Origin: Pseudomonas silesiensis
GTDB taxonomy: Bacteria; Pseudomonadota; Gammaproteobacteria; Pseudomonadales; Pseudomonadaceae
Reading direction: 5' to 3'
Assembly (NCBI RefSeq): GCF_001661075.1
Contig: NZ_CP014870.1
Location: 6,019,703-6,083,702, forward strand
Length of the DNA stretch: 64,000 nucleotides
Part shown: positions 4,000 to 27,026 of the stretch, piece by piece
Layout of the letters: the number at the start of each line of letters is the position of its first letter
How positions within the stretch are numbered: position 1 is the first letter of the stretch
Translations under genes and position numbers: made by a program
Notes under the pieces: model-generated
Database searches by the model: none
What the model saw: the letters and a program-made list of their open reading frames with translations, nothing else
What the model was told of the DNA's origin: nothing

Positions 4000-4064
4000 T
4001 CTATCAGGCCTTCGCGCCAACCCGGCCATCGCGCCGGTCAAAAGAATAAGAACAGGTGAACCCT

Positions 4065-5513
4065 ATGCCTAGCGATCAAGCCAGCGTGCAGCCGGCTACC
4101 TCCTCTGTCGACTTTGAAAAAGTCGGCTCCGATTATTTCCAGCAACGCGAACTGAAAAAAGGTGCAGCAGGCTGGGTCCTGCTGGTCGGCCTCGGCGTGG
4201 CCTACGTCATCTCCGGCGACTACGCCGGGTGGAACTTCGGCCTGGCCCAGGGTGGCTGGGGCGGCATGTTTCTCGCCACGCTGCTGATGGCGACCATGTA
4301 CCTGTGCATGTGCTTTTCCCTGGCTGAACTGTCTTCCATGATCCCGACCGCAGGCGGAGGCTACGGGTTTGCCCGCAGTGCGTTCGGCCCTTGGGGCGGG
4401 TTCTTGACCGGCACCGCGATCCTGATCGAATACGCCATCGCACCAGCGGCGATCGCGGTGTTTATCGGCGCCTATTGCGAATCCCTGTTCGGCATCGGCG
4501 GCTGGATGATCTACCTGGCGTTCTACATCATCTTTATTGCCATCCATATTTTCGGCGTCGGTGAAGCCCTGAAACTGATGTTCGGCATCACCGCCGTCGC
4601 AGCCCTGGCATTGGGGGTGTTTCTGGTGAGCATGGTGCCGCACTTCAGCGTCGCCAACCTGCTGGACATCCCGGTCACCGATGCCAAGGGCGCCAGCAGT
4701 TTCCTGCCTTTCGGCTATGTCGGCGTCTGGGCAGCCATTCCCTATGCCATCTGGTTCTTCCTGGCAGTCGAAGGCGTGCCACTGGCGGCAGAAGAAACCA
4801 AAAACCCGAAGCGCGACCTGCCCCGCGGGCTGATTGGCGCCATGCTGGTACTGGTTAGCTTCGCCCTGCTGATTCTGGTGATCGGCCCAGGCGGTGCAGG
4901 TGCCCAGGCCCTGGTGACCTCGGGCAACCCATTGGTCGAAGCACTGAGCAAAGCCTATGGCGGCTCGACCTGGATGGGCCATTTCGTCAATCTGGTGGGC
5001 CTGGCCGGGCTGATCGCCAGTTTCTTCTCCATTATCTACGCCTACTCGCGGCAGATTTTCGCGCTGTCCCGCGCCGGCTACCTGCCGCGCAAACTGTCGC
5101 AAACCAACAAGAGCAAGGCCCCCGTACTGGCGTTGATCATTCCTGGCATCATCGGGTTCGGGCTGTCGCTGACCGGTCAGGGTGACCTGCTAATCCTGGT
5201 GGCGGTGTTCGGTGCGACCATTTCCTACGTCTTGATGATGGCGGCGCACATCACGCTGCGCATTCGGCGCCCCAAAATGGATCGTCCATACCGCACGCCA
5301 GGCGGTATCTTCACCTCGGGCGTCGCGCTGGTGCTGGCTTGCATCGCCGTGGTGGCGGGCTTCCTGGTGGATCCGCGCGTGGTGATTGGCGCTGCGATCA
5401 TCTATGGAGTGTTAATTGCTTACTTCGCGTTCTACAGCCGGCATCATTTGGTAGCAGGCACGCCCGAAGAAGAATTCGCGGCCATTCAGAACGCCGAAAA
5501 AGCGCTGCACTAA
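4065..5513 (+). CDS. eat: Ethanolamine permease (APC family)
   Basis: This inner-membrane transporter of about 482 residues has roughly 12 hydrophobic segments and belongs to the amino acid-polyamine-organocation family. It shows the helix-1 signature VLLVGLGVAYVISGDYAGW and the loop EGVPLAAEETKNPKRDLP typical of ethanolamine permeases. An in-frame GTG at 4056 is possible, but the ATG at 4065 has a better-placed ribosome site (AACAGG, eight bases away). The gene lies 52 bases upstream of eutB and is probably cotranscribed with eutBC, supplying their substrate. No separate promoter is obvious in the REP-containing gap before it. Confidence 0.93.
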   Translation: MPSDQASVQPATSSVDFEKVGSDYFQQRELKKGAAGWVLLVGLGVAYVISGDYAGWNFGLAQGGWGGMFLATLLMATMYLCMCFSLAELSSMIPTAGGGYGFARSAFGPWGGFLTGTAILIEYAIAPAAIAVFIGAYCESLFGIGGWMIYLAFYIIFIAIHIFGVGEALKLMFGITAVAALALGVFLVSMVPHFSVANLLDIPVTDAKGASSFLPFGYVGVWAAIPYAIWFFLAVEGVPLAAEETKNPKRDLPRGLIGAMLVLVSFALLILVIGPGGAGAQALVTSGNPLVEALSKAYGGSTWMGHFVNLVGLAGLIASFFSIIYAYSRQIFALSRAGYLPRKLSQTNKSKAPVLALIIPGIIGFGLSLTGQGDLLILVAVFGATISYVLMMAAHITLRIRRPKMDRPYRTPGGIFTSGVALVLACIAVVAGFLVDPRVVIGAAIIYGVLIAYFAFYSRHHLVAGTPEEEFAAIQNAEKALH

Positions 5514-12051: not shown

Positions 12052-12230
12052 CGCCCCACATTTGCGCATCGACCCTTCCCAAGGCCCAGATCGCAACGAC
12101 CCGGCAGATCACTTTCTCGCCGAGTCCCACAGCCGGACGCAAGATCCGGGTGTACGTTTTGAAGGCTGTTGCGGTTTACCAAAAATAAACCAAGCCAGTC
12201 CCCGAGAAGCCGGCCACAAGCCGGCTTTTT
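12052..12230 (+). ncRNA. Possible small RNA gene ending at the att-site terminator
   Basis: This is tentative. A TATGCT -10-like box (12045-12050), with CTGGGA about 18 bases upstream, is followed by about 160 non-coding bases that end in a good rho-independent terminator. The element has integrated precisely in that terminator, which is how elements using tRNA, tmRNA or small-RNA 3' ends behave. I do not recognise the RNA family, and short open frames here look accidental. Confidence 0.3.
12207..12230 (+). terminator. Terminator hairpin overlapping attL
   Basis: The stem AAGCCGG/CCGGCTT (loop CCACAAG) runs into five T residues. The 3' arm and T run belong to the 20-base att repeat, so integration keeps a working terminator for whatever lies upstream. 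Confidence 0.8.
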
Positions 12231-12233
12231 AAT
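12214..12233 (+). repeat. attL: left 20-base direct repeat of the element
   Basis: CCACAAGCCGGCTTTTTAAT occurs here and identically at 43656-43675, in the same orientation. The integrase gene is 164 bases to the right. The pair delimits a 31,442-base unit. Confidence 0.88.
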
Positions 12234-12313
12234 TGTCCGAAATAATCCTACCCCATCCGAGAATCCACCTGATAGCCTTGCTATTCCGTGCGTTTCAGGC
12301 ATTCCCCTGTCCG

Positions 12314-12330
12314 ATGGCGTTCAACGCCAT
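12314..12330. promoter_or_regulatory. Palindrome upstream of the integrase
   Basis: ATGGCGTT-C-AACGCCAT is a perfect 8+1+8 palindrome between attL and the integrase start. It is a candidate operator for an AlpA-like or other regulator; no partner can be named. Confidence 0.4.
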
Positions 12331-12351
12331 TTGACCTCATCCGACGATCAA

Positions 12352-12386
12352 GTGGGGGGACAGGTGGGGGGACAAATGGGGCGACA
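12352..12386 (+). repeat. Three 12-base-period direct repeats at the left end
   Basis: GTGGGGGGACA (12352, 12364) and ATGGGGCGACA (12376) repeat every 12 bases just upstream of the integrase start. Two further copies, in the same orientation, lie just inside the right end. They are likely arm-type binding sites for the integrase and may also control its expression. Confidence 0.7.
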
Positions 12387-12397
12387 GGGGAAATCCA

Positions 12398-13609
12398 ATG
12401 GGTAAGCTGAATCCGAAACAAGTCGAAAACCTGACCGAACCAGGCACCTATGAAGATGGCGACGGGCTACGGTTGGTCGTCAAACCCACCGGGCGTAAAT
12501 CCTGGCTACTTCGCTTCCAACTGGCAGGCCGGCGCAGGGAGATGGGTTTGGGCTCATTCCCTGAAGTGAGCCTCAAGAAAGCCAGGCTTGAAGCCAGCGC
12601 CAAGCGCAGTCAATTAAGCAATGGTGTAGATCCTCTAGCCGCTCGTGATATCGAACGTGCTGCTCAACGCGAAGCCCAACGCACCAGCGAGGCAAAACAG
12701 CTGAAGTTCGAGACGCTCGCGGAAGAATACTGCGAGGCCCACGGAGGCGCCTGGTCGGAGAAGTGGCGCAAAGGCTGGCTGCGGAAGCTGGAGCTGTATG
12801 CGTTTGCCCAAATTGGCAAACTGTCCGCCGAGGAAATCAGCACGCCTCAGGTGCTCAAGGTGCTGCAACCCATATGGGCCACCAAGACCAGAACTGCCGA
12901 CGAGGTACGTGGGCAGATTGAGCAGGTTCTGGACGCCGCCAAGGCACGCAACCTGCGAGAGGGCGAGAACCCTGCTCGCTGGCGTGGTCACTTAGACAAT
13001 CTGTTGAGTCGTGCTGAAAAGAAGAAGGCTAGGAAGCGCGAGCACTTTGAAGCTTTGCGGTGGCAAGACGTGCCATCGTTGATAGCCAAACTCAAAGCGG
13101 ACAACACACAAGCATCCTTTGCCGCTCAACTGCTGATCATGACCAGCGCACGTGCCCACATGGTGAGGTTTGCACGCTGGGATGAGTTCGATCTTGAGGC
13201 TGGCACTTGGTGCCTGCCTGATGAGCGAATGAAGATGCGGGTTGCATTCGTAATCCCGCTCGCTGACGAAGTCGTAAAGCTGGTGCAGAGCATTCCGCGA
13301 GCTGGGGGAACCTCTTATCTATTCCCAGGCCAGGGCAAGACAGGGGTCATGCACGCAAACGCCATACGGACACTTCTACACGGGATGGAGTACGACCATG
13401 TCACACGACACGGCTTTCGATCCTCATTTCGAGACTGGGCAGGAGAATGCACTCACTACCCGCGTGAGGTTTGCGAAATGGCGCTGGCCCATGATGAGCG
13501 TGACCAGACTGAAGGGGCTTACTCTCGCTCCGATTTTTTAGAGAAACGTCGATCACTGATGATTGATTGGGCTAGGTTTGTTTGCTCGGCGACGGCCCCT
13601 GCGAACTGA
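12398..13609 (+). CDS. int: P4-type tyrosine recombinase (integrase)
   Basis: This 403-residue recombinase has an N-terminal DUF4102-like arm-binding domain (DGDGLRLVVKPTGRKSW), a core-binding domain and a C-terminal catalytic domain. Catalytic residues can be followed as R in TSARAHMVRFARWDEFD, HGFR with its H and R, then LAH and the tyrosine in EGAYSRSD. It is expected to integrate and excise the element at the 20-base att site and lies next to attL, as usual for this family. The ribosome site is GGGGAAA, shortly before the ATG. It appears intact, so the element may still be able to excise. Confidence 0.95.
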   Translation: MGKLNPKQVENLTEPGTYEDGDGLRLVVKPTGRKSWLLRFQLAGRRREMGLGSFPEVSLKKARLEASAKRSQLSNGVDPLAARDIERAAQREAQRTSEAKQLKFETLAEEYCEAHGGAWSEKWRKGWLRKLELYAFAQIGKLSAEEISTPQVLKVLQPIWATKTRTADEVRGQIEQVLDAAKARNLREGENPARWRGHLDNLLSRAEKKKARKREHFEALRWQDVPSLIAKLKADNTQASFAAQLLIMTSARAHMVRFARWDEFDLEAGTWCLPDERMKMRVAFVIPLADEVVKLVQSIPRAGGTSYLFPGQGKTGVMHANAIRTLLHGMEYDHVTRHGFRSSFRDWAGECTHYPREVCEMALAHDERDQTEGAYSRSDFLEKRRSLMIDWARFVCSATAPAN

Positions 13610-13956: not shown

Positions 13957-15102
13957 ATGTCACTAGTATTTGCTGACCGCTTAAACCAGCCAGGAACTCA
14001 TGCGTTTGTGGTCGGCGTGAGCGCCTATGAACACTTACCAAAAGGCTCTGAATCTGCCTCGTCTGATTTCGGCATGGGCCAGCTCAACGCTGCCGCACGG
14101 TCGGCCTCTGAGTTCGCCGCTTGGTTACTTAATGAATATCACAATCCTGCAGCGCCGCTTCGTAGCCTACGCACATTGCTTTCACCTTCGTTGCCCAACG
14201 AGCACATTCATCCGGATATTCAGTCGCTACTAGGGGGGAACAGTGCCGCTACCTTGCAAAACTTTAAGGACCAGTTCAAAGAATTCCACAATGACCTGAT
14301 AGGTAACGAGTCTAATATTGCGATCGTTTATGTCTCCGGTCATGGAGTGCAGCTAACCTCGGAGGGAGCAATTCTCTTACTCAACGACTTTGGAGGAGAT
14401 GTCGACTCTGGCCTCGAAGGCTCAGTTGACATTTTCAATCTAAGGCAAGCATTACGTTTCGACACTTCAGCACACACACAATTTTGGTTCGTCGACACTT
14501 GCAGACAACGCCCGGAGATTGCAGAGTTTTATGAGAAAATGGAAGGCGCATACAAGAAAAGCATCCGCCGCTCCAGTATAAGAAAAAACTCCTCACTGTT
14601 CCTTTCTTGTTCTACCGGCACGCAAGCATATGCCAATAAATCTGGCCTTACCTTCTTTTGTGATGCGCTTCTACATGGATTAAGATCAGCACAAGCTGCA
14701 GACTCTGACGGAGAGCACGGATCACTTTGGCGCGTCTCTGCTCCTAGCCTATCAAGCTACTTAGATAAGGCAGTTCCAGAGTTTGCCCTTGAAAAGGGTC
14801 GCCATCAATACGTCGAGTGCCAAGGATGCTCGTCTCCAGCAGTTTTACATGTTTACAAGACAACGCCTAACGTCCAATTACATATTGATGTCGGACCCGA
14901 AGCAGATCGTCCTAACCATACGGAATTCAACCTTAAACAATCAGGTAAACACTGGGTTGAGAATTATTCCAACTGGCCACTAGACACTGAAATTCCGGCA
15001 GGCCTTTATTCTGCTAACTGGAAATGCTGTCACTCCGTCGATGCTTACGCCAGCGAATATAACTTTAAACCACCGATGCGCCGTGTGGAACTGAAAAAAT
15101 GA
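13957..15102 (+). CDS. Caspase-like (C14) cysteine protease
   Basis: This protein of 381 residues has the caspase-hemoglobinase fold in its first 260 residues. The start strand is HAFVVGVSAYEHL, the catalytic histidine is in YVSGHGVQ (His129) and the catalytic cysteine in WFVDTCRQR (Cys182). The C-terminal 90 residues look like a small beta-sandwich. No signal peptide is visible, so it should act in the cytoplasm. It overlaps the next gene by four bases (ATGA) and heads a three-gene operon. Bacterial caspase-like proteases often act as suicide effectors in phage defence; that role is inferred here. The catalytic assignment is confident, but the activating signal and the substrate are unknown. 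Confidence 0.85.
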   Translation: MSLVFADRLNQPGTHAFVVGVSAYEHLPKGSESASSDFGMGQLNAAARSASEFAAWLLNEYHNPAAPLRSLRTLLSPSLPNEHIHPDIQSLLGGNSAATLQNFKDQFKEFHNDLIGNESNIAIVYVSGHGVQLTSEGAILLLNDFGGDVDSGLEGSVDIFNLRQALRFDTSAHTQFWFVDTCRQRPEIAEFYEKMEGAYKKSIRRSSIRKNSSLFLSCSTGTQAYANKSGLTFFCDALLHGLRSAQAADSDGEHGSLWRVSAPSLSSYLDKAVPEFALEKGRHQYVECQGCSSPAVLHVYKTTPNVQLHIDVGPEADRPNHTEFNLKQSGKHWVENYSNWPLDTEIPAGLYSANWKCCHSVDAYASEYNFKPPMRRVELKK

Positions 15103-16169
15103 AGCCTTTTGATCACTCACCGCAGCCCACGGGCAGTTTAACTGTAACCATAGCCTCGAGATTAAACCGAGGTGGTAGAAAGACAGAAATCAGCATTCGC
15201 GACCATAGTCTCGCGCTTTTATCTTGCAATACTCTTCGTGAATTTGACCTTAAGCCTGGCATCTATGAAGTCAGTGCATTAAACGATGCTGGTGAAAAGT
15301 CAGAGCACATCGTCAGAATTCACCCCAACAAAACAACCTCGCTCAAACTAAATTTCAAGTTAGCTGAAAGCATAGACAGTCATCTGAAAGACGAAGACTT
15401 TCGGACACTTCAGAATAACGAAATTATTTCTTTAAAAAGTACACAATTTTCTCTACACGGCGCTAGTGCTGGATTAGAGATAAATGAACTTGAAAATCAG
15501 ATGATAGTGCGCCATACAGGAGAGATGCTCGAGGTTTCAACTATCACCGTGCTTTGTAATGACGAGTTTCATAGATTCAGTCTGCCGTTAAGTAATGGGA
15601 CACACCATCGCTCAGTCTTCTGCCACCTACTTGCCGACACCCTGAAAGACTTTGGCATACCTCGCGTGCGACTTTCTCAAGGGCGCACCGTAGCATCAGC
15701 CATGGAGCGTCTATATGAAAGCAACCGATTACGCAACGCAGCTGAAATTGCTAAAGACTCGCTAAAGTACCTCACATCGCAAGTCGAGGATCCGACAGGG
15801 ATATTAATTGGAGCACTAGCTTTATTTAAGGCCGATCGCCTGAAAGATGATGTTGAATGGCTAGAATCATTTAATGATAAGTATCCATGGCTACCTGATG
15901 GGAAGATTTTGTTAGCCTGCCTGATGAGCGACGAATACCCTGATAGCTCGATGAAACTAGCGCTTGCGGCTAGCGAACAGACTATACTTTACAGGGACAC
16001 ATTCTCCATGCTAATTAATTTTCTACGACAATGGCCAGACAAAGAATCGTTACAACGCAATACTGCGCTTGAATACCTAGGACGGATTTCACCATATATA
16101 AATTGGCGATCTACCTACTTATGTCTTTCACTACCACAAAAAAGTTCAGGAAATAATGCTGATGTTTGA
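15099..16169 (+). CDS. Unrecognised protein of the caspase/MBL operon
   Basis: I do not recognise this 356-residue protein. Its first 90 residues are beta-rich and end in a pattern, FDLKPGIYEVSALND, typical of carboxypeptidase-regulatory or PEGA-like beta-sandwiches. A similar PAGLY pattern occurs near the end of the neighbouring caspase. The rest is mainly helical. There is no signal peptide, membrane segment or catalytic motif I can name. It is coupled to the caspase by ATGA and overlaps the next gene by 14 bases, so the three products are almost certainly made together. It may be the sensor, adaptor or protease target. Confidence 0.75.
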   Translation: MKPFDHSPQPTGSLTVTIASRLNRGGRKTEISIRDHSLALLSCNTLREFDLKPGIYEVSALNDAGEKSEHIVRIHPNKTTSLKLNFKLAESIDSHLKDEDFRTLQNNEIISLKSTQFSLHGASAGLEINELENQMIVRHTGEMLEVSTITVLCNDEFHRFSLPLSNGTHHRSVFCHLLADTLKDFGIPRVRLSQGRTVASAMERLYESNRLRNAAEIAKDSLKYLTSQVEDPTGILIGALALFKADRLKDDVEWLESFNDKYPWLPDGKILLACLMSDEYPDSSMKLALAASEQTILYRDTFSMLINFLRQWPDKESLQRNTALEYLGRISPYINWRSTYLCLSLPQKSSGNNADV

Positions 16170-17271
16170 AATACGGATGCTTCCTGCCAGCGAAGGTGAC
16201 GCATTGTGGATTGTCTGGGGCGACGAAAAAAAGCCTTACCAAATGCTTGTGGATATGGGGACAATTCAAACCGGAAACCTACTTTACAAAGAAATAAAAG
16301 CACTCAAACCGGAAAATAGAAATTTCGAGCTCGCAGTCGTAACACATATTGATAGTGACCATATCGGAGGCATGCTGAGTTGCTTCGTGCGACGACCTCC
16401 CTTGGCAGGTTTGGAAATTAAGGATGTGTGGTTCAATGGCTTTGACCATCTAGAGCTCACAACCCAAGTCCTCGATACTGAATCATTGGGGGCCAACCAG
16501 GGAGACGAACTGACTCAATGGCTACGCGATAGCGGACACTGGAATGTAGCTTTCAAAAAAGGAGCGGTTGTAGCGCCAAAGTGTAGCCCGTTCCCTATTT
16601 TCGAGTTATCGGGCGGCATGAAAGTCACCGTACTCGGTCCATCACGGGAGCGACTTGACCAACTCAAACCAGAATGGAAAAAACAACTAGCTAGGGCTCT
16701 GTTAAGAACTCGTCCAGCTGCACCAGACGACGGAGTCGAAGCTATGGGTAGCCACAACGCTCCCCGAACGCGGCACCGCCTTAGAGATCTTGCTAACATG
16801 CCGGAACGTCCGGACCCAAGTATTCCTAACGCTAGCAGCATCGTGTTGATGTTGGAATACTCTGGCCGCAGAGTTATCTTGACAGGAGATGCGTGGGCTG
16901 ATGACCTGGAACGAGCAATTCGCAAATTGAGTCCAGAGGGCTGCCTAGAGGTAGATGCTTTCAAAGTTCCCCACCATGCTAGCAGATTCAACATAACTGA
17001 AAGCCTGATTAAATCATTACGATGCAAGACTTGGCTAATATCAACTAATGGCTCAGGACATCATCACCCTGACGATCAAGCCATTGCAAAAATAATTTAT
17101 CATAGTTCAATTCAACCGGCAGAGTTAAATTTCAATGTCCGCAGCCCCTGGAATGAAGACTGGCTTTCAACTGATCGCCAACAAAGCCTCAACTACATCG
17201 CGAAACATGGCGACAAAGCACTAGGCCTATCCCTCCCACTGCCAGCCAATGTCAGTTTCAAATTATGCTAA
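16156..17271 (+). CDS. Stand-alone ComEC/Rec2-like metallo-beta-lactamase-fold hydrolase
   Basis: This soluble protein has 371 residues. Metal-binding motifs in order are THIDSDHIGG (63-72), GDAWADD after ILT, then VPHHASR and a final GHHHPD, the series seen in the MBL domain of ComEC/Rec2 but without membrane segments. The first motif is H-x-D-x-D-H rather than the usual H-x-H-x-D-H, which is normal for the ComEC branch. ComEC MBL domains are linked to DNA degradation during uptake, so a nuclease role is plausible. An alternative ATG lies at 16162. It is the last gene of the operon with the caspase-like protease. Confidence 0.85.
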   Translation: MLMFEIRMLPASEGDALWIVWGDEKKPYQMLVDMGTIQTGNLLYKEIKALKPENRNFELAVVTHIDSDHIGGMLSCFVRRPPLAGLEIKDVWFNGFDHLELTTQVLDTESLGANQGDELTQWLRDSGHWNVAFKKGAVVAPKCSPFPIFELSGGMKVTVLGPSRERLDQLKPEWKKQLARALLRTRPAAPDDGVEAMGSHNAPRTRHRLRDLANMPERPDPSIPNASSIVLMLEYSGRRVILTGDAWADDLERAIRKLSPEGCLEVDAFKVPHHASRFNITESLIKSLRCKTWLISTNGSGHHHPDDQAIAKIIYHSSIQPAELNFNVRSPWNEDWLSTDRQQSLNYIAKHGDKALGLSLPLPANVSFKLC

Positions 17272-17374: not shown

Positions 17375-18046
17375 TCATCTATGCTTGGACATTTTTAAAA
17401 GATAGGTATCCCTAGGAACGCCTTTGGCCCTTAGTGCAAACTTAATAAAATTCTCAGCATTCGGTACAACTTTTCCAAACCGATTAGAAACAATGAAGCC
17501 ATCAAGCTTTTCACAGAGCTTTTCAGCTGTATCCACCTGAGTCTTCCACCCTTCGCTTGGAGAGTCGCTGAGCAAACCAACCAAATACTCGCTCACCATT
17601 TCTCTAATGCGCTTGTTGGCTCGTCCACCGCTAGATGGCCCTTTTATAGTAATTTCAGCGTGCCTAGTGAAATCTTGATATCCATCAACAAACCCTAGAT
17701 GATAAGATGCATAGGTAAGCAAAGTTAACGCTTTATTTTCATCCTCTAATTTTAGCGCCTTCAGTGAAGATAGATAATAAAGACTAGCAAAGAAAAATCC
17801 AACCATAAAGGTATCAGCATGCTCAACAGCTTCACCGGCATTCCAGTAGCATGATGCTATTTCATCCGACCCAATGTCCTGGGCATCAATAATTTTCTCT
17901 ACACGCTTTCTGAATCCAGAATAAAGCTCATCCGGCCAGAACTCTTTAAACACCCCACGTAAAACCCTGCCCACCTTTATCGAAATACGCTCTGCATCTA
18001 GAGTGGAAATCTCTTGCGGAAGCAATGGTAGGAAAAGCATCTTCAC
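17375..18046 (-). CDS. Hypothetical protein
   Basis: This 223-residue protein is not recognised. It is largely helical, with no signal peptide and no clear motif; a hydrophobic stretch (TFMVGFFFASLYYLSSL, about 79-95) could be a buried helix or a membrane contact. It is A+T-rich like its neighbours and lies 112 bases downstream of the DUF3987 gene in the same orientation, so it may be in that transcript. The ATG used is the first in the frame; an overlapping shorter frame further upstream seems spurious. Confidence 0.6.
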   Translation of the reverse strand: MKMLFLPLLPQEISTLDAERISIKVGRVLRGVFKEFWPDELYSGFRKRVEKIIDAQDIGSDEIASCYWNAGEAVEHADTFMVGFFFASLYYLSSLKALKLEDENKALTLLTYASYHLGFVDGYQDFTRHAEITIKGPSSGGRANKRIREMVSEYLVGLLSDSPSEGWKTQVDTAEKLCEKLDGFIVSNRFGKVVPNAENFIKFALRAKGVPRDTYLLKMSKHR

Positions 18047-18158: not shown

Positions 18159-19613
18159 CTACCAAGAACGAGCGCGCGGGCCGTTTAATTCAATATGCCG
18201 AGCCCTTCCACTTCTAGAAAAATCAATTTTACCCTGATTACGCAGTACGGACAACGCTCTATCTAAACGCTCCTTTTCTCTGAGCTTGTTTGGACCGCGC
18301 TGTAAAACTTCATTCTTAAAAACATAATCAAAGCCCTTACTTCGATAACGATCAAGCCAGATATTTAATTGCACGGCATCAATTTCTTCCTGCATTGGTA
18401 TCGCAAAGATACGTTTAAACTCATCTGAACACCAAAGACATAGTTCAACTGCAAACTCCAACGTCTGTAATGACACGTCCCCATCAAAACCCTCAAATAG
18501 ATGAAATAGCGCAGCCACCCTGGAAATATTGTCGACTAATTTTGAGGCGTGATCACCAAATCCTTCGAACCTCCCATCCTTATTGATACCTGATTCAATA
18601 GCGTTAAAAATATCCAACCAGCGCTCACTTGCCTCAGGAGAGAACTGGACTGTCTGACGCTTCGGGCTATCGATGCTATCTAGCAAAGTCGCATTCTGCC
18701 TGATAATTATTTTGAGGCGCTCGGAAAAGACAGTGCAATGCTCCCAGGACGTTGTTCCATTCTTAATAAGCCTTGAACCTTGGGTTGACAATGGATAGCA
18801 GACTAAAAAACGAGCCCAAAGCCCAGACCCTCGAGTTTTTTCACCTAGACGTTTTATATAATCTTTAAACGCACTTTCTTGCGCCATTATGGAAACCGTT
18901 AGGCGCGCCTCATTAAGTTCGTAGCTTTCTGTAGTTCTACGATCAACAGTAATTGAATCGCCGCTCCAGATAGAATTTTGCTTTGGCAGGTCATTCAGCG
19001 CGCGCCCATTTAACACCCCACCACCTTCACTAGAAATCAAACCGGCCGTCGGTAGATTTTGATGAAGCCCCAGAAACAAAGCCTCAGGCGTAGAGTCATC
19101 ATACAAAATCTTAAACTGCTTAGGCTTAGCTGGCCTGCTATTACCATGCTCATACAAAATACGCTCACTTTCTTGCGTGCATCTTCCATTGAGCACAAGT
19201 TTCCCTATTAATCTAAGAATAGCTTTGTTTTTCGCCTCCCATATCTTGCATTTAGTTACCCACTCATTAATCATCGTCTGATACACCACCCCATACTCTT
19301 CTTGCACCTCTCTTACTGGAGCTAAAAAGATGCTTTCAGCCGTTGATTTGCGCTCTCCAGAGTTTGCAATAGTCAAAAGCATTAACGAAACTGGAACGCA
19401 TTGACCATTTGGCTTTCGCACATCAAAGAGCCCTTGGAGTGATACAGAAATAGCCGTCAGCGCACTGAAGAAGATCAGAGGTAATGGAGCCTGAATATTA
19501 TTTTGAGCCTCATTAATTGCAGCGCCAAGGAGTGGCAAAGGTGCACATCTCGGGAAAGGACTACCGCACGGTGGCAAGTCTCTTTTGAGGCCGTAGTAGG
19601 ACGTCATTAGCAA
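18159..19613 (-). CDS. DUF3987-family protein (YfjI-like)
   Basis: This protein of 484 residues contains the characteristic LLTIANSGERKST phosphate-loop-like segment of DUF3987 proteins. They are found in phages, satellites and integrative elements, often beside primase or replication functions. It overlaps the AlpA-like gene by seven bases, so the two form one operon. A role in element replication is inferred from family context; no primase motif is visible in the protein itself. Confidence 0.85.
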   Translation of the reverse strand: MLMTSYYGLKRDLPPCGSPFPRCAPLPLLGAAINEAQNNIQAPLPLIFFSALTAISVSLQGLFDVRKPNGQCVPVSLMLLTIANSGERKSTAESIFLAPVREVQEEYGVVYQTMINEWVTKCKIWEAKNKAILRLIGKLVLNGRCTQESERILYEHGNSRPAKPKQFKILYDDSTPEALFLGLHQNLPTAGLISSEGGGVLNGRALNDLPKQNSIWSGDSITVDRRTTESYELNEARLTVSIMAQESAFKDYIKRLGEKTRGSGLWARFLVCYPLSTQGSRLIKNGTTSWEHCTVFSERLKIIIRQNATLLDSIDSPKRQTVQFSPEASERWLDIFNAIESGINKDGRFEGFGDHASKLVDNISRVAALFHLFEGFDGDVSLQTLEFAVELCLWCSDEFKRIFAIPMQEEIDAVQLNIWLDRYRSKGFDYVFKNEVLQRGPNKLREKERLDRALSVLRNQGKIDFSRSGRARHIELNGPRARSW

Positions 19614-19966
19614 TCCGCCCCGATAGCCACTAATGCTGCACCGACGCCTCTTTGACAGACGCTACTTTTAATTTCGGTGCGCATGCGCCCTCCCCAGCCA
19701 GCAGCAATCCTAGAATCAAGCCAGCTGCAGAGGTCAGATTCGATCCAGCCGACAGCCCCACACCTGCCGCCCCCACTCGAGAGCTTGATCGGATGTGGAA
19801 AAGAAGGATCATGCCTCGGTGAATTCAGATTCATCCAATCGTAGACAGTTGAGCGACTTACCCCCACCCGCTCTAAAACCAGTTTCAAACGCAGCACTCT
19901 GATAGCTGGTTTCCCACTTTGCTCCAAGCCGAATACGTTACCGGCTTTATTGTCAGTGATGCACAT
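19607..19966 (-). CDS. AlpA-like helix-turn-helix regulator
   Basis: This 119-residue protein has a MerR/excisionase-like winged helix-turn-helix (RLKLVLERVGVSRSTVYDWM) and the family motif FPHPIKLSSGG, followed by VGWIESDLCSWLDSR, typical of phage AlpA regulators. AlpA-type proteins activate integrase expression and act as excisionases, so this is the best candidate for controlling excision. The N-terminus is longer than in minimal AlpA proteins. A strong ribosome site (GGAGGGCGGAG) precedes the ATG. Confidence 0.88.
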   Translation of the reverse strand: MCITDNKAGNVFGLEQSGKPAIRVLRLKLVLERVGVSRSTVYDWMNLNSPRHDPSFPHPIKLSSGGGRCGAVGWIESDLCSWLDSRIAAGWGGRMRTEIKSSVCQRGVGAALVAIGADC

Positions 19967-20134
19967 CTCTCCGCCCTCCAGCTAATTCATCGAAAGATTG
20001 CGATGCTAGGGACTTTGAGCAGCGGTGGCGCGCCGCCTGCTTACAGCCGAAAAATATTGCAAGCACTCGACTTGACAAAATAGAAACAAGTAGTTTTTTT
20101 TGCGAGTCAAACTCACAAAAATTACCGGCGCAAG

Positions 20135-20168
20135 CTGCTATTTTCGCTATTAGTAGCGGAAATAGCAG
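20135..20168. promoter_or_regulatory. Large hairpin in the divergent control region
   Basis: The arms CTGCTATTTTCGCTA (20135-20149) and TAGCGGAAATAGCAG (20154-20168) pair at 14 of 15 positions around a 4-base loop. It lies between the minus-strand alpA-like gene and the plus-strand recombination module, in an A+T-rich stretch. It could be an operator, an origin or a nick site. Confidence 0.55.
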
Positions 20169-20242
20169 TTGTGAGAGCTGTCGATTAAAAAATTTTCAGT
20201 CATACATCACTGCAATGACATCTACCGATGGAGCTCAGAACC

Positions 20243-20572
20243 ATGTCATTGCAATGTCCTCTGTGTAACTCCCCCAAGATCGCATCCTTACAAACAGCCA
20301 TGAAGATTGGCGCAGCTGTTGGAACCGTCGGCGGAGCCGCTCGTGGTGCGAGCGCCGCCCTGGCAGTAGGCCAGGTGGGCGCCTCTGTCGGCGCTATTGC
20401 CGGCCCTCTTGGCATCACCCTCGGCACAGTTTCTGGTGCCATCCTCGGCGGGCTCGCTGGAGGTGCAGGCGGCTGTGCCCTCGGTGCTCAACTTGGCGAA
20501 AAACTCGATCGCCATGTGTTCGCCAACAACCTTTGTCTCGCCTGCAATCATCGCTTCAACCTACCAGCCTAA
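20243..20572 (+). CDS. Small protein: zinc-ribbon halves flanking a glycine-rich segment
   Basis: This 109-residue protein begins with CPLCNSPK and ends with CLACNHRF, two CxxC knuckles that could form one zinc ribbon. Between them is a 70-residue stretch of G/A-rich, glycine-zipper-like sequence (for example GTVGGAARGASAALAVG), which could enter membranes. The start at 20243 is preferred because of GGAG nine bases upstream. No function is known to me. It opens the module with the DUF932 and YqaJ genes. Confidence 0.7.
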   Translation: MSLQCPLCNSPKIASLQTAMKIGAAVGTVGGAARGASAALAVGQVGASVGAIAGPLGITLGTVSGAILGGLAGGAGGCALGAQLGEKLDRHVFANNLCLACNHRFNLPA

Positions 20573-20595
20573 TCCTCTTACAACATTCTTCGGTA

Positions 20596-20619
20596 AATGC
20601 TGCGCGTGCGCAGCATTTA
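20596..20619 (+). terminator. Hairpin before the DUF932 gene
   Basis: AAATGCTGCGC and GCGCAGCATTT form a perfect 11-base stem with a 2-base loop. Without a clear T run it is more likely an attenuator or processing site than a full terminator. Confidence 0.5.
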
Positions 20620-20649
20620 TGCCGGTACGCACCCAAAGGAATCACTCCC

Positions 20650-21618
20650 ATGGCTCATCTCGTCGAACAAATGGCATACGTTGGCGCTACCCCTTGGCAT
20701 GGTTTGGGTAACCGCCTGACGCAAAAACAACCGCTTGAGGTCTGGCAGCGAGAAGCCGGCATGAACTGGCAAATCCAGGACAGCCCAGTTCACTTCAAGG
20801 CCGACACTGTCGGCAACCTAGGCACAATTCACTCCTTTCCGGAACAAAAGGTTCTCTACCGCTCTGACACCAAGGCCCCCTTGTCGGTGGTTTCCAACCG
20901 CTACCAGGTCGTGCAGCCTCGTGAGGTACTGGAGTTCTACAGAGATCTGACTGAGGTCTCCGGCTATGAGCTGGAAACAGCAGGGATACTCAAAGGTGGC
21001 CGCAAGTTCTGGGCTCTGGCCAGAACCGGGCAGACAACCGTGCTGAAGGGGGACGATCAGGTGAATGGCTATCTTCTGTTAGCCACATCCTGTGACGGCA
21101 CGCTGGCCACCACCGCGACCCCGACCACCGTGCGTGTAGTTTGCAACAACACCCTGACCATCTCCCTGAACGGCGCTACCCGTGCAATCAAGGTGCCGCA
21201 CAATACGCGCTTTGATCCGCAGACCGTGAAGAAACAACTGGGCATCGCCGTCTCGCAATGGGATGAATTTATGTACCGCATGCGCGCACTGGCGGAGCGC
21301 AAGGTGCAGTGGCATGAGGCGATGGGCTTCTTCATGAATGTGCTGTGTGATGTGGCCCCCAATAGCAAGCTGCCGGAAGTGCTTCCGAATGAGCGAGCGC
21401 TGCGCAAAGTCCAAGGGCTGTACGAAGGCCAAGGTCGTGGAGCCACGCTTGCATCAGCTCAAGGAACTGCATGGGGCTTGCTCAACGCCGTGACGGAGTA
21501 TGTCGATCACGAGCGACGCGCCAGGAGTACTGAGTACCGCATGGACTCTGCGTGGTTCGGGGCCGGGGCCGTCCTCAAAGACCGCGCACTGAATGCTGCA
21601 CTGCAACTCGCCGCTTAG
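20650..21618 (+). CDS. DUF932 phage/plasmid-like protein
   Basis: This protein of 322 residues matches the DUF932 family seen in phages, plasmids and integrative elements. It shows the N-terminal TPWHGLGNRL motif and a central LLLATSCDGTLATTATPTTV region. The true start is the ATG at 20650; the longer open frame runs through the preceding gene's end. Function is unknown, but the family regularly travels with YqaJ exonuclease, as here, suggesting a recombination or replication accessory role. Confidence 0.88.
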   Translation: MAHLVEQMAYVGATPWHGLGNRLTQKQPLEVWQREAGMNWQIQDSPVHFKADTVGNLGTIHSFPEQKVLYRSDTKAPLSVVSNRYQVVQPREVLEFYRDLTEVSGYELETAGILKGGRKFWALARTGQTTVLKGDDQVNGYLLLATSCDGTLATTATPTTVRVVCNNTLTISLNGATRAIKVPHNTRFDPQTVKKQLGIAVSQWDEFMYRMRALAERKVQWHEAMGFFMNVLCDVAPNSKLPEVLPNERALRKVQGLYEGQGRGATLASAQGTAWGLLNAVTEYVDHERRARSTEYRMDSAWFGAGAVLKDRALNAALQLAA

Positions 21619-21643
21619 CCTCACTCACCTACTCAACGATTAA

Positions 21644-21678
21644 AACGCCTGGTCAGCTTCTGCTGGCCGGGCGTTTTT
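21644..21678 (+). terminator. Terminator after the DUF932 gene
   Basis: AACGCC-T-GGTCAGC pairs with GCTGGCC-G-GGCGTT around TTCT and is followed by five T residues. The downstream YqaJ gene starts 21 bases later, so read-through or attenuation is likely. Confidence 0.8.
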
Positions 21679-21698
21679 ATACCGGATAGGAAAACATC

Positions 21699-22703
21699 AT
21701 GGATAAGCAATCGCTGCAACACTCCTGCAGTAAACCCCGCCCCGCCTTGCGCCTTGTCGGTACCAAACAACTACCGCGTGAGAATTGGCTGGCCGTGCGT
21801 AAACAAGGCATCGGCAGCTCGGATGCAGCCGCCGCAGTAGGTCTTAACCCTTACAAATCCCAGCTGGAGCTGTGGCTGGAGAAAACTGGCCGTGATACCT
21901 CACTGCCCAAAATAGATCCCAATGACGAAGAAAGCCCTGCTTACTGGGGCAACATCTTGGAGCCGATTGTCGCGACTCATTACACCAAGCGTAGTGGGCG
22001 CCGGGTACGTCGCATCAATGCCGTGTTGCAGCATCCTGATCCTAAATTGCCCTGGATGCTGGCCAACATCGACCGCGAGGTCATCGGCGCCGACGATGTG
22101 CAGATCCTCGAATGCAAAACAGCCGGCATCAACGGCGCACGTCTCTGGAATGAGGGCGTGCCCGAATATGTGCAGCTGCAGGTCATGCACCAGCTGGCCG
22201 TGACAGGCAAGCAGTCGGCGGATGTGGCTGTACTGCTCGGCGGCCAGCATCTGGAGATCCACCGCATCGAACGAGACGAGTCGATGATTGCTCGGCTGAT
22301 CGACCTGGAGCGGCTGTTCTGGGACTACGTGGTCAGTGACACCCCGCCACCGGCCGATGGTACAGACTCGGCCGAAGCGGCGTTGCGCTGCCTCTACCCC
22401 GAGGACAATGGTCAAACCCTGGACCTCTGCCAGCACACGGAACTGGCCAGCACCTTCCTGGAGCTCAAGGCTGTTCGCCAGAACATTGCTCAGCAAGAGA
22501 CGCGTGAGGCGCAGCTCAAGCAAGTCCTGCAGCAAGCCATGGGGGCAGCCACCCGTGCGGAGTTTACCGAGGGCTATATCAGTTGGAAGAAGTCCAAGGA
22601 CAGCATTGCTCTGAACGTCGAACAGATGCTCAAGGACAAACCCTACCTGCAAGCCCGCTATCCCAAGATCAAAACAGGCAGCCGCCGCTTCCTGATTGGC
22701 TAA
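21699..22703 (+). CDS. YqaJ-family (lambda exonuclease-like) viral recombinase
   Basis: This 334-residue protein has the YqaJ nuclease signature: WLAVRKQGIGSSDAAAAVGLNPY near the N-terminus (an RxxGIGGSD-type motif), and the catalytic D...E-x-K core in NIDREVI..VQILECKTA. Such enzymes are 5'-3' exonucleases used in single-strand annealing recombination, usually with a ssDNA-binding annealase. The neighbouring 306-residue protein may be that partner. It sits between two hairpin terminators. Confidence 0.9.
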   Translation: MDKQSLQHSCSKPRPALRLVGTKQLPRENWLAVRKQGIGSSDAAAAVGLNPYKSQLELWLEKTGRDTSLPKIDPNDEESPAYWGNILEPIVATHYTKRSGRRVRRINAVLQHPDPKLPWMLANIDREVIGADDVQILECKTAGINGARLWNEGVPEYVQLQVMHQLAVTGKQSADVAVLLGGQHLEIHRIERDESMIARLIDLERLFWDYVVSDTPPPADGTDSAEAALRCLYPEDNGQTLDLCQHTELASTFLELKAVRQNIAQQETREAQLKQVLQQAMGAATRAEFTEGYISWKKSKDSIALNVEQMLKDKPYLQARYPKIKTGSRRFLIG

Positions 22704-22719
22704 ACCGTTTCCCTCATCC

Positions 22720-22756
22720 AAGCCACCCGGACCGTTTACGTCCCGGTGGCTTTTCT
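22720..22756 (+). terminator. Terminator after the YqaJ gene
   Basis: AGCCACCCGGAC and GTCCCGGTGGCT form a stem of about 12 bases, followed by TTTCTATTTT. It again precedes the next gene by about 25 bases. Confidence 0.75.
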
Positions 22757-22780
22757 ATTTTCAGATCAAGGATAACCGCC

Positions 22781-23701
22781 ATGCTCAAAGGTTTAGCCAT
22801 CACCCCTCCGGTACTCGGGCGTATTTCCATCGGCAAGGTCGTCGAGAAAAACGGCAAGCGCCTGCCCGAGAAAGACGATCAATTCACCATCACCTCGCAA
22901 GTCCAAAACCGCGACGGTTGGTTAATGCACCCGCACAATGAGGAGCTGCGCAATGGCCAGGATGGCAAACTGCGCAGCATTCCGATCCGCTTGCTGTTCA
23001 ACGAGCCGGACCTGAACTTTCGGGCTGACTACAGCCTGTTCGACCGCGCTACCGGCCGGCCGCTGTGCGTGGGCAATGGTGAAACATGCAAGCGTTTGAC
23101 CAAGGACGGAATCCAGTCGTTGCCCTGTCCTTCACCGGATGGCTGTTCGCTGGCGCAAGGCGCAGCCTGCAAGCCCTACGGACGACTGAATGTTGCCATC
23201 GGGAATGAAGATCCACTGGGCAGCTTTGTCTTTCGCACCACGGGCTACAACAGCATTCGTACCCTGGCAGCACGTCTGCACTACCTACAAGCCATCTCCG
23301 GCGATCGATTAGCCTGCCTGCCGTTGGAACTGCGTCTGCGTGGTAAGTCCACGCGGCAGAGCCACGGTGCACCGATTTTCTACGTCGATATCACGGTGCG
23401 CAGCGGCCTGAGTCTAGAAGACGCCTTACTGGAAGCCAAGCAGCTCGACAAAACCCGGCAGGCCTCCGGCTTTAACCAAAGCGCTCTTGATCATGCGGCC
23501 CGGCAGGGCTTTAACAATGGGGCCTTTGAGGACAGCGAGGAGGACACCGGCGCCGTCGTCGAGGAGCTCTTCCCTGCCATTGAAGATCAGCCCAGCCATG
23601 TTGAGCCCCATTCCCAACTGGCTGCGCCTACCAAACCCTCACTCGCGCAAAAGCTGCAGTCGCAAGCCACGCGACACAAGGGCAGACCCACCGCCCAGTA
23701 A
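22781..23701 (+). CDS. Putative metal-binding recombination accessory protein
   Basis: This 306-residue protein is of the type often labelled hydrolase or metal-binding protein in integrative elements. A cysteine-rich patch (NGETCKRLTKDG...PCPSPDGCSLAQGAACK, about 100-132) probably binds metal. The last 60 residues are acidic and disordered, resembling the acidic tails of ssDNA-binding proteins. The start is the ATG at 22781, after the terminator. Its fixed position after YqaJ suggests an annealing or DNA-binding partner role; this is inferred. Confidence 0.75.
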   Translation: MLKGLAITPPVLGRISIGKVVEKNGKRLPEKDDQFTITSQVQNRDGWLMHPHNEELRNGQDGKLRSIPIRLLFNEPDLNFRADYSLFDRATGRPLCVGNGETCKRLTKDGIQSLPCPSPDGCSLAQGAACKPYGRLNVAIGNEDPLGSFVFRTTGYNSIRTLAARLHYLQAISGDRLACLPLELRLRGKSTRQSHGAPIFYVDITVRSGLSLEDALLEAKQLDKTRQASGFNQSALDHAARQGFNNGAFEDSEEDTGAVVEELFPAIEDQPSHVEPHSQLAAPTKPSLAQKLQSQATRHKGRPTAQ

Positions 23702-23750
23702 CCGCATTTCTCAATCCCCCGTTCTCACGCATTCATATAGGAATACCCTC

Positions 23751-24248
23751 ATGAAATATCACAAGCTTATAGCCAATGAAAGGACCGGGACCTATGTCAT
23801 GGACTCACCGGTCACCGAGGCCGACATCCTGCAGATGGCGCAACAACTAGCGATGAGTCGGTTGTCGAAAGGTCGGGCACTGACTGAGCCGAAACAGGTC
23901 TTCAGCCACCTACAAACACTGCTGCAGTACCACGAGCATGAAGTCTTTGCGTTATTGCTGCTTGATACCAAGTACCGGGTGATTGGTTTCCGAGAGCTAT
24001 CCGGAGGCACCCTAGACGGGGTCAGCGTATATCCACGGGAAGTGGTTAAGGTCGCCTTGGAGCACAACGCTGCCGCCGTGATCCTAGTACATAAGGTGCA
24101 CAACAGCGACTCAGAGACCTGTCAAGCCGATCGCACATTGACCACCAACATCAAGAACGCACTAAACATGATTGGCACCCGAACATTGGATCATGTCGCA
24201 GTGGGATATGAGGGATGCAGATCGATGGCTGAGCAGGGGTACCTGTAA
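23751..24248 (+). CDS. RadC-like JAB/MPN-domain protein with altered metal site
   Basis: This 165-residue protein covers the JAB/MPN domain of the RadC family without the N-terminal HhH part. The family core is followed through EVFALLLLDTKYRVIG, PREVVKVALEHNAAAVILVH and the C-terminal SMAEQGYL. The usual metal motif HxHP...SxxD aligns to H114-K-V116-H117...C124-Q-A-D127. The second histidine is therefore replaced by valine (with a histidine one place later) and the serine by cysteine. It closes the DUF932/YqaJ module. RadC-like proteins are common in mobile elements and their role is unsettled. Confidence 0.85.
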   Translation: MKYHKLIANERTGTYVMDSPVTEADILQMAQQLAMSRLSKGRALTEPKQVFSHLQTLLQYHEHEVFALLLLDTKYRVIGFRELSGGTLDGVSVYPREVVKVALEHNAAAVILVHKVHNSDSETCQADRTLTTNIKNALNMIGTRTLDHVAVGYEGCRSMAEQGYL

Positions 24249-24425
24249 CGCCTATGCTCACACCGTCCGATGGACTGCCCTTGGCTGATGCTAGGGCGGT
24301 CATCGGCACGATCCCCATCAGTTATTTTTTTAGCCATCGATCTGCAGTCCTAACCCCAGTGCCACCAACGTAGAAGCCCCAATCAGAACGCCCTGAGTTT
24401 GTCACTCGCTTATAGCACTGCGATG

Positions 24426-25676
24426 TCAGTGACCAGCCCCAACATCAGACGAGCTTTCTGGCAGAGTGTTTGGCTTTGGTCTTTCAATATAAGGGACGTC
24501 AAACATCGGTCTGGAACGCCACCCTTCTGGCTCGCGATCGATCAAAACCCAATATTTTGAAGCTCTCTTCGGCGCGGGAAGCGGGGTCTTTAACTTCATT
24601 CTTTCGAGGTAGCGCTCTTCAAACGCGGGTCTGTTCATCGCTTTAAACCCAATGTTCTCAACAGACGGACCGCGAACCAAATTGGCTGAACCACTCATGA
24701 CCTCGCACACGCTCTCGGAAATACCGGCGAAGAATTTTGCATGGAAATCTTGCTTCCTGGCATCCATGGCGACAAGCCTGTTTTCCAAGCCAAATTTCTC
24801 TAGAAGGTTGACCGAAATTCCGTCCTCCTCCATGGCCTTCCTATAGGCCGTCCACGTCGCTCCACGCGTCAAGAAAATGGACTTCTCAGAGTCCAGTATG
24901 CCAAGCAGCCACTCCCATACGGCCAACTGTTTTTCTGAAGACATGAATGTCGTGCCCACGAACGGTGAGACGATCAGAATTTGCTCGGCAAGCAGATTCC
25001 AACGGATGATCAACTTTTCAAGCAAGTCCATTGCATCGTCCTTGGACACAATGCCATCCAACGTTTCCTCAAACTTTGCGCCGGAAACATCCGCAAGGAG
25101 AAAGTCGTTTTCCGATGTAGGTCCGGTGCCGGCGCCCATCAAAAGCCGCGCATAAAAGGTGGCCGTGTGCCTCCCTCCGCACGAACACTCCACGGGCACA
25201 CGCACCACTGCATAGTCGTGGTGGGGACCACCCTTCAATAGATAGTTCTGCGCGACGTGGTAGGCTTTAACAACTGCCGAAATCTCGTTTCCCAAAGCTG
25301 TCTTGGCGAGCCTCTCTAAATCAGCCGAGCCCTTCGCGCATTGATAGAGCGGGGTTGCCGAGTAGTTGAACCGCCACACATTGAGGTTCAGATCAATGTT
25401 GTGTCGGAAAACGTCATGGGCAACTGTGCTCCGATCCCCAGCGAATGACTTTTCATGCCTTGCTTTGATTTGCTTGCAAAGCTTGCTGCCAGACTCTAGA
25501 GGATTGTTGAGCTCGATGACGAACGGTTGATTGCACCTAGGGCAATCAACCTCCCAATAGCCAGGGTCGTTTTCACCTTGAAATTTGATCTCGACGTAAT
25601 GATGCGGCTCCCCGCAATGAGGACAATTTGCCGCATGCTCTGTTCTGTATGTGCCATCGTCTCGGCTTGATCTCAT
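24426..25676 (-). CDS. Zinc-ribbon and phospholipase-D-like domain protein
   Basis: This 416-residue protein begins with a zinc ribbon (CPHC at 18-21, CPRC at 45-48) and has a further CSCGGRH cluster (164-170). The C-terminal half is PLD-like: LIVSPFVGTTFM, then FHAKFF (His312, Lys314) and SGSANLVRGPSVEN (328-341), matching one HxK...GSxN catalytic set, as in PLD-type nucleases that act as dimers. It stands alone, so it is either a defence nuclease or an element maintenance function. Function is inferred from the motifs. Confidence 0.75.
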   Translation of the reverse strand: MRSSRDDGTYRTEHAANCPHCGEPHHYVEIKFQGENDPGYWEVDCPRCNQPFVIELNNPLESGSKLCKQIKARHEKSFAGDRSTVAHDVFRHNIDLNLNVWRFNYSATPLYQCAKGSADLERLAKTALGNEISAVVKAYHVAQNYLLKGGPHHDYAVVRVPVECSCGGRHTATFYARLLMGAGTGPTSENDFLLADVSGAKFEETLDGIVSKDDAMDLLEKLIIRWNLLAEQILIVSPFVGTTFMSSEKQLAVWEWLLGILDSEKSIFLTRGATWTAYRKAMEEDGISVNLLEKFGLENRLVAMDARKQDFHAKFFAGISESVCEVMSGSANLVRGPSVENIGFKAMNRPAFEERYLERMKLKTPLPAPKRASKYWVLIDREPEGWRSRPMFDVPYIERPKPNTLPESSSDVGAGH

Positions 25677-25870
25677 CTTGTCTCCTGGGCATTCGTCCTG
25701 AGCGCTATTCCATCAACCCGATAGAGCTCTCTTTTCACACTACCCTGCGGTGAATCCAGCTTCAGGCAGAACGAACTTCTGAACTACAGGGATAGCTAAC
25801 CCCAAGGAAGTGAACGAGCCATCTCCGCTGAATCACCACAACAATCGAAATGGAATGCAGCGCTATCAAG

Positions 25871-25910
25871 TAAACGGGTGTCGGTATCCGGTTTTACTGG
25901 GGTAATTTCA
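25871..25910. repeat. Possible relic of an IS2-group insertion-sequence end
   Basis: About 40 bases (TAAACGGGTG.TCGGTATCCGGTTTTACTGGGG as a run of similar blocks) resemble the right end of the complete IS at 33515-33551, including the GTATCCGGTTTT/GTGTCCGGTTTT core. No transposase sequence accompanies it, so it may be a scar or coincidence. Confidence 0.35.
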
Positions 25911-25927
25911 AACGAAATGCAGGTGGC

Positions 25928-26251
25928 TCAACACTCATCTTCTTCATAATCGACTTCAACGATCTCAACCGCCAAGCTCTGGATGATCTCGATACCTTCA
26001 GGGCACTCCACCAACTCGAGCCCGTCGATGCTTGGAGTTGTGAAGCCGTAATCAGCCGTGACGCGCCATACGACAGCCCCAGCCTGGGTAGCCCCTGTGA
26101 ACAAAGACGCATAGATTTCACCATCCTCCTTGAATTTTTGAGCCTCCAGCAGCTCAGATGAGGACTGAACAATCGAATCTGCCGGGATAGTTATCTTCTT
26201 GCCTGACAGTTCGTAAACTACATCCTGAGTCACTTCAATCATTGATGCCAT
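25928..26251 (-). CDS. Small acidic hypothetical protein
   Basis: This 107-residue, strongly acidic protein ends EVDYEEDEC. It is beta-rich by inspection and has no motif I recognise. The start MASMIEV is preceded by AGGAGGG. Acidic small proteins in islands are sometimes anti-restriction or DNA-mimic proteins, but nothing here proves that. Confidence 0.55.
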   Translation of the reverse strand: MASMIEVTQDVVYELSGKKITIPADSIVQSSSELLEAQKFKEDGEIYASLFTGATQAGAVVWRVTADYGFTTPSIDGLELVECPEGIEIIQSLAVEIVEVDYEEDEC

Positions 26252-26363
26252 GGTGCCCTCCTAGTAAAAGGGCACCACTGTAGTGGCAATCGGATAGCTA
26301 GGAAACAGGGCATTTGCTCAGAAGGGGGGAATACGCGTCAACTGATCGACGATATTTCCTACC

Positions 26364-27020: not shown

Positions 27021-27026
27021 GAGTGA

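Follow-up and report, generated by a model that had tools for sequence, protein, structure and literature searches.

Here we describe a three-gene operon at positions 13957..17271 of a 64,000-nucleotide stretch of the Pseudomonas silesiensis genome (GCF_001661075.1, contig NZ_CP014870.1; the whole stretch is hereafter the window). Its genes encode a caspase-like protease (CanA), a middle protein (CanB), and a predicted ComEC-like metallo-beta-lactamase (MBL) nuclease (CanC). Because the parts and their order match those of the published Klebsiella aerogenes system, the operon is very probably a Canu (CanABC) system that would act by proteolytic activation of CanC, Canu being the caspase-nuclease loci of Tuck et al. 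2025 (PMC12799240). A first-pass annotation of this DNA had described the set as not a named defence system and had itself given a match to a described system as evidence against that view; such a match is what we found, and the formerly unnamed operon is now placed in a system described late in 2025. In addition, alignments of CanC reveal a shared motif that co-varies between its two loops, with the acidic position the most strongly coupled. The kind of system is thus already known, and what may be new is the predicted mode of substrate recognition together with possible exchangeable effectors.

The operon and its three proteins

In K. aerogenes, canA encodes a MALT1-like caspase with an immunoglobulin (Ig)-like C-terminus, CanB co-purifies with CanA, and CanAB activates CanC; this ComEC-like nuclease carries two loops, each bearing a conserved glycine, that are thought to block the active site (PMC12799240). 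The published text further reports that KaeCanABC stops T4, that defence depends on the two active sites and on each of the two predicted cut sites, that T4 escape maps to dda, a helicase gene, and that the system is a protease-activated nuclease with which the infected cell dies or arrests (PMC12799240). In the window copy, infection would likewise switch on a complex of the paracaspase-like CanA with CanB. The CanC DNase, which its two loops would hold inactive until cleavage, would be cut by CanA-CanB in both of them at hydrophobic-[E/D]-x-[L/M/F/Y]-G, directly before the glycine and most likely between L111 and G112 and between M197 and G198; the freed CanC would then degrade DNA, and the cell would die or arrest before phage release. 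The first-pass annotation had proposed abortive infection by a protease switch plus a nuclease. That proposal agrees with what is reported for the K. aerogenes relative, the parts of which are present here, and only its premise of an unnamed system has fallen away. Against the Canu assignment, the support for it comes from the sequence of this copy and its likeness to the published description of KaeCanABC, and a promoter and terminator search at the operon gave no candidate exceeding shuffled sequences.

The three open reading frames (ORFs) follow one another in the same direction on the + strand, as had been read at first pass (13957-15102, 15099-16169, and 16156-17271). The canA gene (13957..15102; 381 amino acids [aa]) overlaps canB (15099..16169; 356 aa) by 4 bases, in agreement with the earlier reading. 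The 14-base overlap also claimed for canB and canC requires a start at ATG 16156 (371 aa); from the second ATG, canC (16162..17271) encodes 369 aa and the overlap is 8 bases. The latter start is favoured because of the starts of relatives: with starts placed by script, 22 of the 27 other locus-derived CanC rows have their start at the position of ATG 16162 or downstream of it and 5 have it further upstream, and P0178, a 369-aa database relative with 92% identity to the window CanC, begins at the 16162 position. CanC residue numbers refer to the 371-aa form throughout.

CanA matches Pfam Peptidase_C14 at 33.4 bits (cut-off 21.4), and alignment, a structure model, and comparison with the Protein Data Bank (PDB) agree on a MALT1-like caspase domain with an intact His/Cys dyad, which the first-pass annotation had correctly recognized. 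The predicted catalytic His129 (codon 14341..14343) lies in SGHG at residues 127-130 and the predicted catalytic Cys182 (codon 14500..14502) in DTCRQ at residues 180-184; in an alignment (A5) of 71 chosen CanA relatives, Cys182 is invariant and His129 is at least 90% conserved. The CanA profile gave no match among solved structures. As for the Ig-like C-terminus of the K. aerogenes protein, the model of the window CanA shows a confidently predicted domain composed mainly of strands at about 296-379, and among the PDB matches listed, none aligns beyond residue 303. An hhalign comparison of CanA 296-381 with CanB 8-90 gave an E value of 8.1e-5 at a probability of 57%, six other domain pairs having E values of at least 0.11. 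Autoprocessing of CanA or CanB at a loop-type motif was considered and is unsupported: 21 of 149 CanA and 2 of 32 CanB rows have a match, and those listed fall at several places.

The middle protein, which could not be placed before, now has a predicted fold and a family. Although the window CanB itself has no Pfam match, its relatives bear PF27295.1 by precomputed annotation. Its structure model (predicted local distance difference test [pLDDT] 85.6, predicted template modeling score [pTM] 0.80) and the VIA-align matches used for domain assignment indicate a beta-sandwich (10-88), a second beta domain (about 117-192), and tetratricopeptide repeat (TPR)-like helices (197-333). Of the two checks proposed at first pass for this protein, structure prediction thus yielded domains, while its profile found only chance-level matches among solved structures. 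In five loci (L027, L031, L036, L038, and L089), a single open frame contains both a CanA and a CanB match, which fits a physical partnership and may hint at one; CanB is probably the partner of CanA, as a sensor or scaffold.

The reading of the third protein as a ComEC-type MBL hydrolase stands, and we predict it to be a nuclease. CanC matches Lactamase_B (PF00753) at 32.9 bits (cut-off 22.7) and the ComEC structures 9ic4 and 30bt by sequence; against TIGR00361 (ComEC_Rec2) it scores 43.3 bits, below the equivalog cut-off of 190.05. The metal ligands HxDxDH, D, and HH are conserved. In an alignment (A3) of 25 CanC rows, the H, D, D, and H of HIDSDH (residues 64-69; 16345..16362) are invariant, as are D243, H271, and H272 (A3 numbering, which is 2 lower), which fall in a C-terminal metal-site region running from GDAW (244-247) to PHH (272-274) at 16885..16977.

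A shared motif in the two CanC loops

We aligned 148 CanC rows: that of the window, those of 27 loci, and the 120 database relatives that ranked best among 512 matches. Both loops carry the motif hydrophobic-[E/D]-x-[L/M/F/Y]-G, which in the window reads T-E-S-L-G in loop 1 (108-112; 16477..16491), with Thr as its first residue, and V-E-A-M-G in loop 2 (194-198; 16735..16749). A glycine aligns with G112 in 144 of 148 rows and with G198 in 120 (the column is gapped in 26). The strict form.[ED].[LMFYWH]G occurs in both loops in 125 rows (loop 1, 128; loop 2, 127), and the same search succeeds in 9.7% of shuffled loop-2 regions. By sequence comparison, ComEC is without both loops.

The two copies of the motif tend to change together. 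Among the 132 rows in which both sites can be read, the acid at -3 from the glycine is Glu in both loops in 111 and Asp in both in 10, and Glu is never paired with Asp; at -1, the residue class (both aromatic or both non-aromatic) agrees in 120. Corrected mutual information over 46,915 column pairs ranked -3/-3 first, -4/-4 fifth, -1/-1 thirteenth, and -2/-2 at 471, and with the 132 readable rows only, the first three pairs ranked 1, 4, and 18 of 41,582. Relatedness was controlled for by a tree built from CanC columns without the loops, with contrasts, simulations, and representatives below 62% identity. On this tree each of the two loop sites shows 5 changes of the acid, and none of 1,500 simulations of independent change reached the observed association for the acid, nor any of 1,500 for aromatic/aliphatic. 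The 66 usable representatives gave 57 concordant and 9 discordant cases for aromatic/non-aromatic, and where both loops have an acid the counts are 57 and 0. Six CanC genes from plasmids that adjoin a CanA-family caspase (L054, L056, L057, L058, L099, and L101) lie outside this set and have at most 46.5% identity to any of the 148; the -1 class agrees between loops in all six.

Several observations weigh against a strict rule of this kind. The acid is absent from one or both loops in 11 of the 132 rows, and aromatic and non-aromatic residues are mixed at -1 in 12. Off-register pairs of -4 with -3 also rank high (28 and 82). The tree offers only a small number of supported independent contrasts: 2 for the acid, both in the same direction; 5 for aromatic/aliphatic (on average 3.4 same, 0 opposite, and 1.6 with the other loop unchanged); and 7 for L/M (4.2 same, 0.2 opposite, and 2.6 unchanged), with no class significant alone at the median. 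The L/M association is marginal, being reached in 82 of 1,500 simulations. Among the plasmid genes, L057 has Asp in loop 1 and Glu in loop 2, and Ser or Ala replaces the loop 2 glycine in L099, L101, and L058. Separately, by-eye inspection of CanA residues against CanC motif class gave no firm link.

It could be that the motifs are a structural family feature and not cleavage sites, and that they co-vary because the loops pack together. Co-variation within a protein often means contact, and the glycine and following QG of loop 1 are nearly invariant among CanC rows. The top couplings, however, are register-wise (-3/-3, -4/-4, and -1/-1) and tend to the same residue or class in both loops (E/E, D/D), which fits a single reader better than contact partners. 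In addition, two Avs1a nucleases with loops at the same places have other residues in both, and mutation of either predicted site in KaeCanC abolishes defence, according to the published text (PMC12799240). We therefore regard packing as an improbable explanation and favour a shared motif read by CanA-CanB.

The position of the cut can be predicted from relatives. Loop 1 reads I-S-[A/V]-[R/K]-Q-G in three nucleases, two annotated as Avs1a (L104 and L105) and one beside a NACHT gene (L107); in the two annotated ones it is ISA[RK]QG, and their loop 2 is I-S-A-G. The isoleucines of L105 are residues 134 and 235, near the I134 and I234 mutated in a published Avs1a, and HamM cleavage has been mapped immediately after an isoleucine (PMC12799240). 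Counting back from the Q-G of loop 1, the spacing of which is kept in 137 of 148 CanC rows, the Avs1a-type isoleucine aligns with the L/M/F/Y of CanC and not with the glycine. We therefore infer a cut between L/M/F/Y and Gly, which in the window would fall between L111 and G112 and, by analogy of register, between M197 and G198 in loop 2. The published Canu account points to the glycines, with no bond mapping in the text passages compared (PMC12799240). The same passages do not describe the extended motif or the loop-loop co-variation, a comparison that leaves aside the figures, with their cut-site logos, and the supplement. Comparison of relatives has thus yielded a concrete prediction of the cut site of a bacterial initiator caspase.

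Loop motifs also match in two nucleases, L100 and L103, for which the profile search detected no caspase. The former, a Cupriavidus plasmid nuclease (598-4229) with DRLG in both loops, lies beside an 861-aa protein missed by the CanA and CanB profiles, which is perhaps another kind of activating partner. Nucleases with a MoxR (L102) or an S8 peptidase (L106) neighbour are without the loop motif.

Distribution, genomic setting, and candidate effectors

A scan for CanA relatives in one genome per species yielded 38 loci. CanC is present in 24 of them, and all 24 have a CanB match between CanA and CanC (in L013, split across two frames), so that the neighbourhood survey suggested at first pass does return a conserved A-B-C order, an association that, judged from these loci, is beyond chance. 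The contigs of two of the 14 CanC-less loci (L014 and L026) stop within 350 bases of the caspase. The system is patchily distributed: the CanB profile matched 7 of 398 genus genomes (5 strongly and 2 weakly), and the CanA profile matched 6 of 369 class genomes (2 at full length) and 68 of 398 phylum genomes, only 4 of which exceed 50 bits, P. silesiensis itself being counted each time. CanB was not found in phage records. Single-sequence tblastn did not find it in plasmid records either, a result that reflects limited sensitivity because distant plasmid Canu loci exist. In one of the plasmid loci, from Bradyrhizobium (L056), a Tle1-like phospholipase gene (3386-4432) lies upstream of a Canu-type set, and genes for TIR-domain proteins adjoin caspase/CanC sets on plasmids of Agrobacterium and Bosea (L058 and L101).

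The operon directly follows a tyrosine integrase gene (12398..13609, + strand; Phage_int_M, Arm-DNA-bind_3, and Phage_integrase), and the next 30 kb hold several defence genes, which bears out the defence-island setting proposed at first pass. Septu lies at 27690-29674 (PtuA, 439.9 bits; PtuB, 126.9 bits). The - strand carries a type III restriction enzyme (1091.4 bits) with its methyltransferase (745.1 bits) at 34432-39388, and a DUF4391 protein with a 1116-aa Snf2-like helicase (PADLOC C3a139 HKD+Snf2, 412.7 bits) at 39432-43471. A PADLOC Orf5/HEC-06 match on the same strand, which we take to be a DUF262-type gene, is split into two pieces (30959-32446 and 33506-34636) by a transposase gene with rve domains (32639-33514). 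Just 3' of the operon, a 223-aa gene (17375-18046, - strand) has no Pfam or NCBIfam match and a marginal PADLOC AbiH match (E 0.044); it is followed at 18159-27047 by genomic-island genes (DUF3987, AlpA, DUF932, YqaJ recombinase, directionality-factor-like, and YagK/YfjJ). Direct repeats, in two pairs of 24 and 25 nt that are 96% alike, lie at 12209-12387 and 43574-43675, in an order that differs between the two ends; they are candidate island ends or attachment sites, or else shared terminators.

This setting bears on whether the operon might be a housekeeping unit for proteolysis or DNA repair, unrelated to phage. The defence activity of the window copy is predicted from sequence, and ComEC-like hydrolases also act in DNA uptake; even so, such a role is highly improbable for an operon that adjoins an integrase, shares its surroundings with Septu, type III restriction, and further defence genes, and is as patchy within its genus as the CanB profile indicates. 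A Canu system remains the preferred reading.

In ten loci without a CanC match (six from the 38-locus scan plus L055, L089, L090, and L093), another enzyme gene lies directly upstream of a CanA-family caspase. This gene encodes an astacin in L032, L034, L035, L055, and L093, the neighbour in the last being a CanA-profile match at 3e-43 that is not evident from annotation. In L029, L038, L039, L089, and L090 it encodes an alpha/beta-hydrolase-like protein with a common VHGV start and HSxGG; three of these five were scanned, with Pfam matches below cut-off in two and none in one. The caspase is followed by a CanB match in every astacin locus (at 19 bits in L093) and, with an E value of 1e-3 or better, in three hydrolase-like loci (L029, L038, and L089). 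At the pro-domain boundary, the caspase-flanked astacins read VESFG (L032 and L035, near-identical), FEAFG (L055), IQPFAAG (L034), and VQAQG (L093), so that the motif is strict in three and degenerate in two. The hydrolase-like proteins carry TETFG (L029) or VEAYG (L090) in an insert, the acid-less LLAMG (L038) or LLAQG (L089), or no motif (L039); only the shared position counts here, because a loose motif of such length is not rare in a 400-residue protein. None of five control astacins without an adjoining caspase by annotation (L094-L098) has the strict motif at the aligned place. Two of them (L094 and L095) nonetheless read EILFG there and a third (L097) APQG, which weakens the case for exchangeable effectors. 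An astacin query matched 0 of 398 genomes in the phylum search. Given so few controls and EILFG in an unflanked pair, the motif is only suggestive as an effector marker, a lead to these enzymes.

We tentatively raise the possibility, which we judge somewhat less than even, that CanA-CanB is a portable module for activating zymogens, which has a caspase-type code and has been wired to unrelated toxic pro-enzymes. The code would be hydrophobic at P4, Glu/Asp at P3, Leu/Met/Phe/Tyr at P1, and Gly/Ser/Ala at P1', and the pair would cut the CanC DNase in two places, metalloproteases of the astacin type at the boundary of the pro-domain, and alpha/beta hydrolases in an internal insert. If so, bacteria would have evolved executioners that can be exchanged for one another under a single initiator caspase, and if the neighbouring astacins and hydrolases are marked by this code as well, a motif search could find new caspase-activated effectors.

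Comparison with known systems

The operon might instead be a remnant of Lamassu or AVAST type 1 in which the MBL subunit was retained beside a protease. CanC does match the PADLOC models for the MBL-type LmuA of Lamassu (228.8 bits) and Avs1a (152.5 bits), as well as the NCBIfam Avs1a model (194.5 bits), but the last score is under the cut-off of 420. Neither a STAND NTPase nor LmuB (SMC-like) or LmuC, the Lamassu partners, was matched among the operon genes and scanned neighbours, which comprise the integrase upstream and the Pfam-less gene, DUF3987, and AlpA downstream; the PtuA ATPase that is present belongs to the Septu pair 10 kb off. Moreover, the protease is a separate caspase and not a trypsin fusion, and the CanC loops are without the Ile-Ser sites of the two Avs1a nucleases. 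A remnant is already largely refuted, and we give it next to no chance. Two other assignments were rejected on score: the 6A-MBL anti-phage system (NF058524, 29.5 bits; cut-off 220) and the EACC1-associated caspases (NF047832), a bacterial caspase family like CanA, for which CanA scores 22.7 bits (cut-off 140). A 2020 survey of conflict systems (PMC7159879), searched in its main text, mentions neither MBL nor lactamase.

With regard to cleavage, the predicted CanC code resembles that of human caspases and MALT1 in its hydrophobic P4, Glu at P3, and small P1'. Human caspase sites have a hydrophobic P4 and Glu at P3 (LEHD, VEID), with a small P1' such as Gly. They differ at P1, which is Asp or Arg in the human enzymes and would be Leu/Met/Phe/Tyr in the CanC code. 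Among bacterial systems, Hachiman HamMAB and AVAST type 1 have a homologous gated nuclease that is opened by a partner protease, but that protease is of the trypsin type and forms a fusion with another defence protein, whereas the window protease is a separate caspase; their reported cut sites follow Ile (PMC12799240), in contrast to the L/M/F/Y-G of CanC. The closest likeness is to Canu itself: although KaeCanABC comes from a different host, K. aerogenes, and differs in sequence, it shares with the window operon the order caspase-CanB-MBL nuclease, the MALT1-like caspase, the two glycine-bearing loops, and the defence-island setting (PMC12799240).

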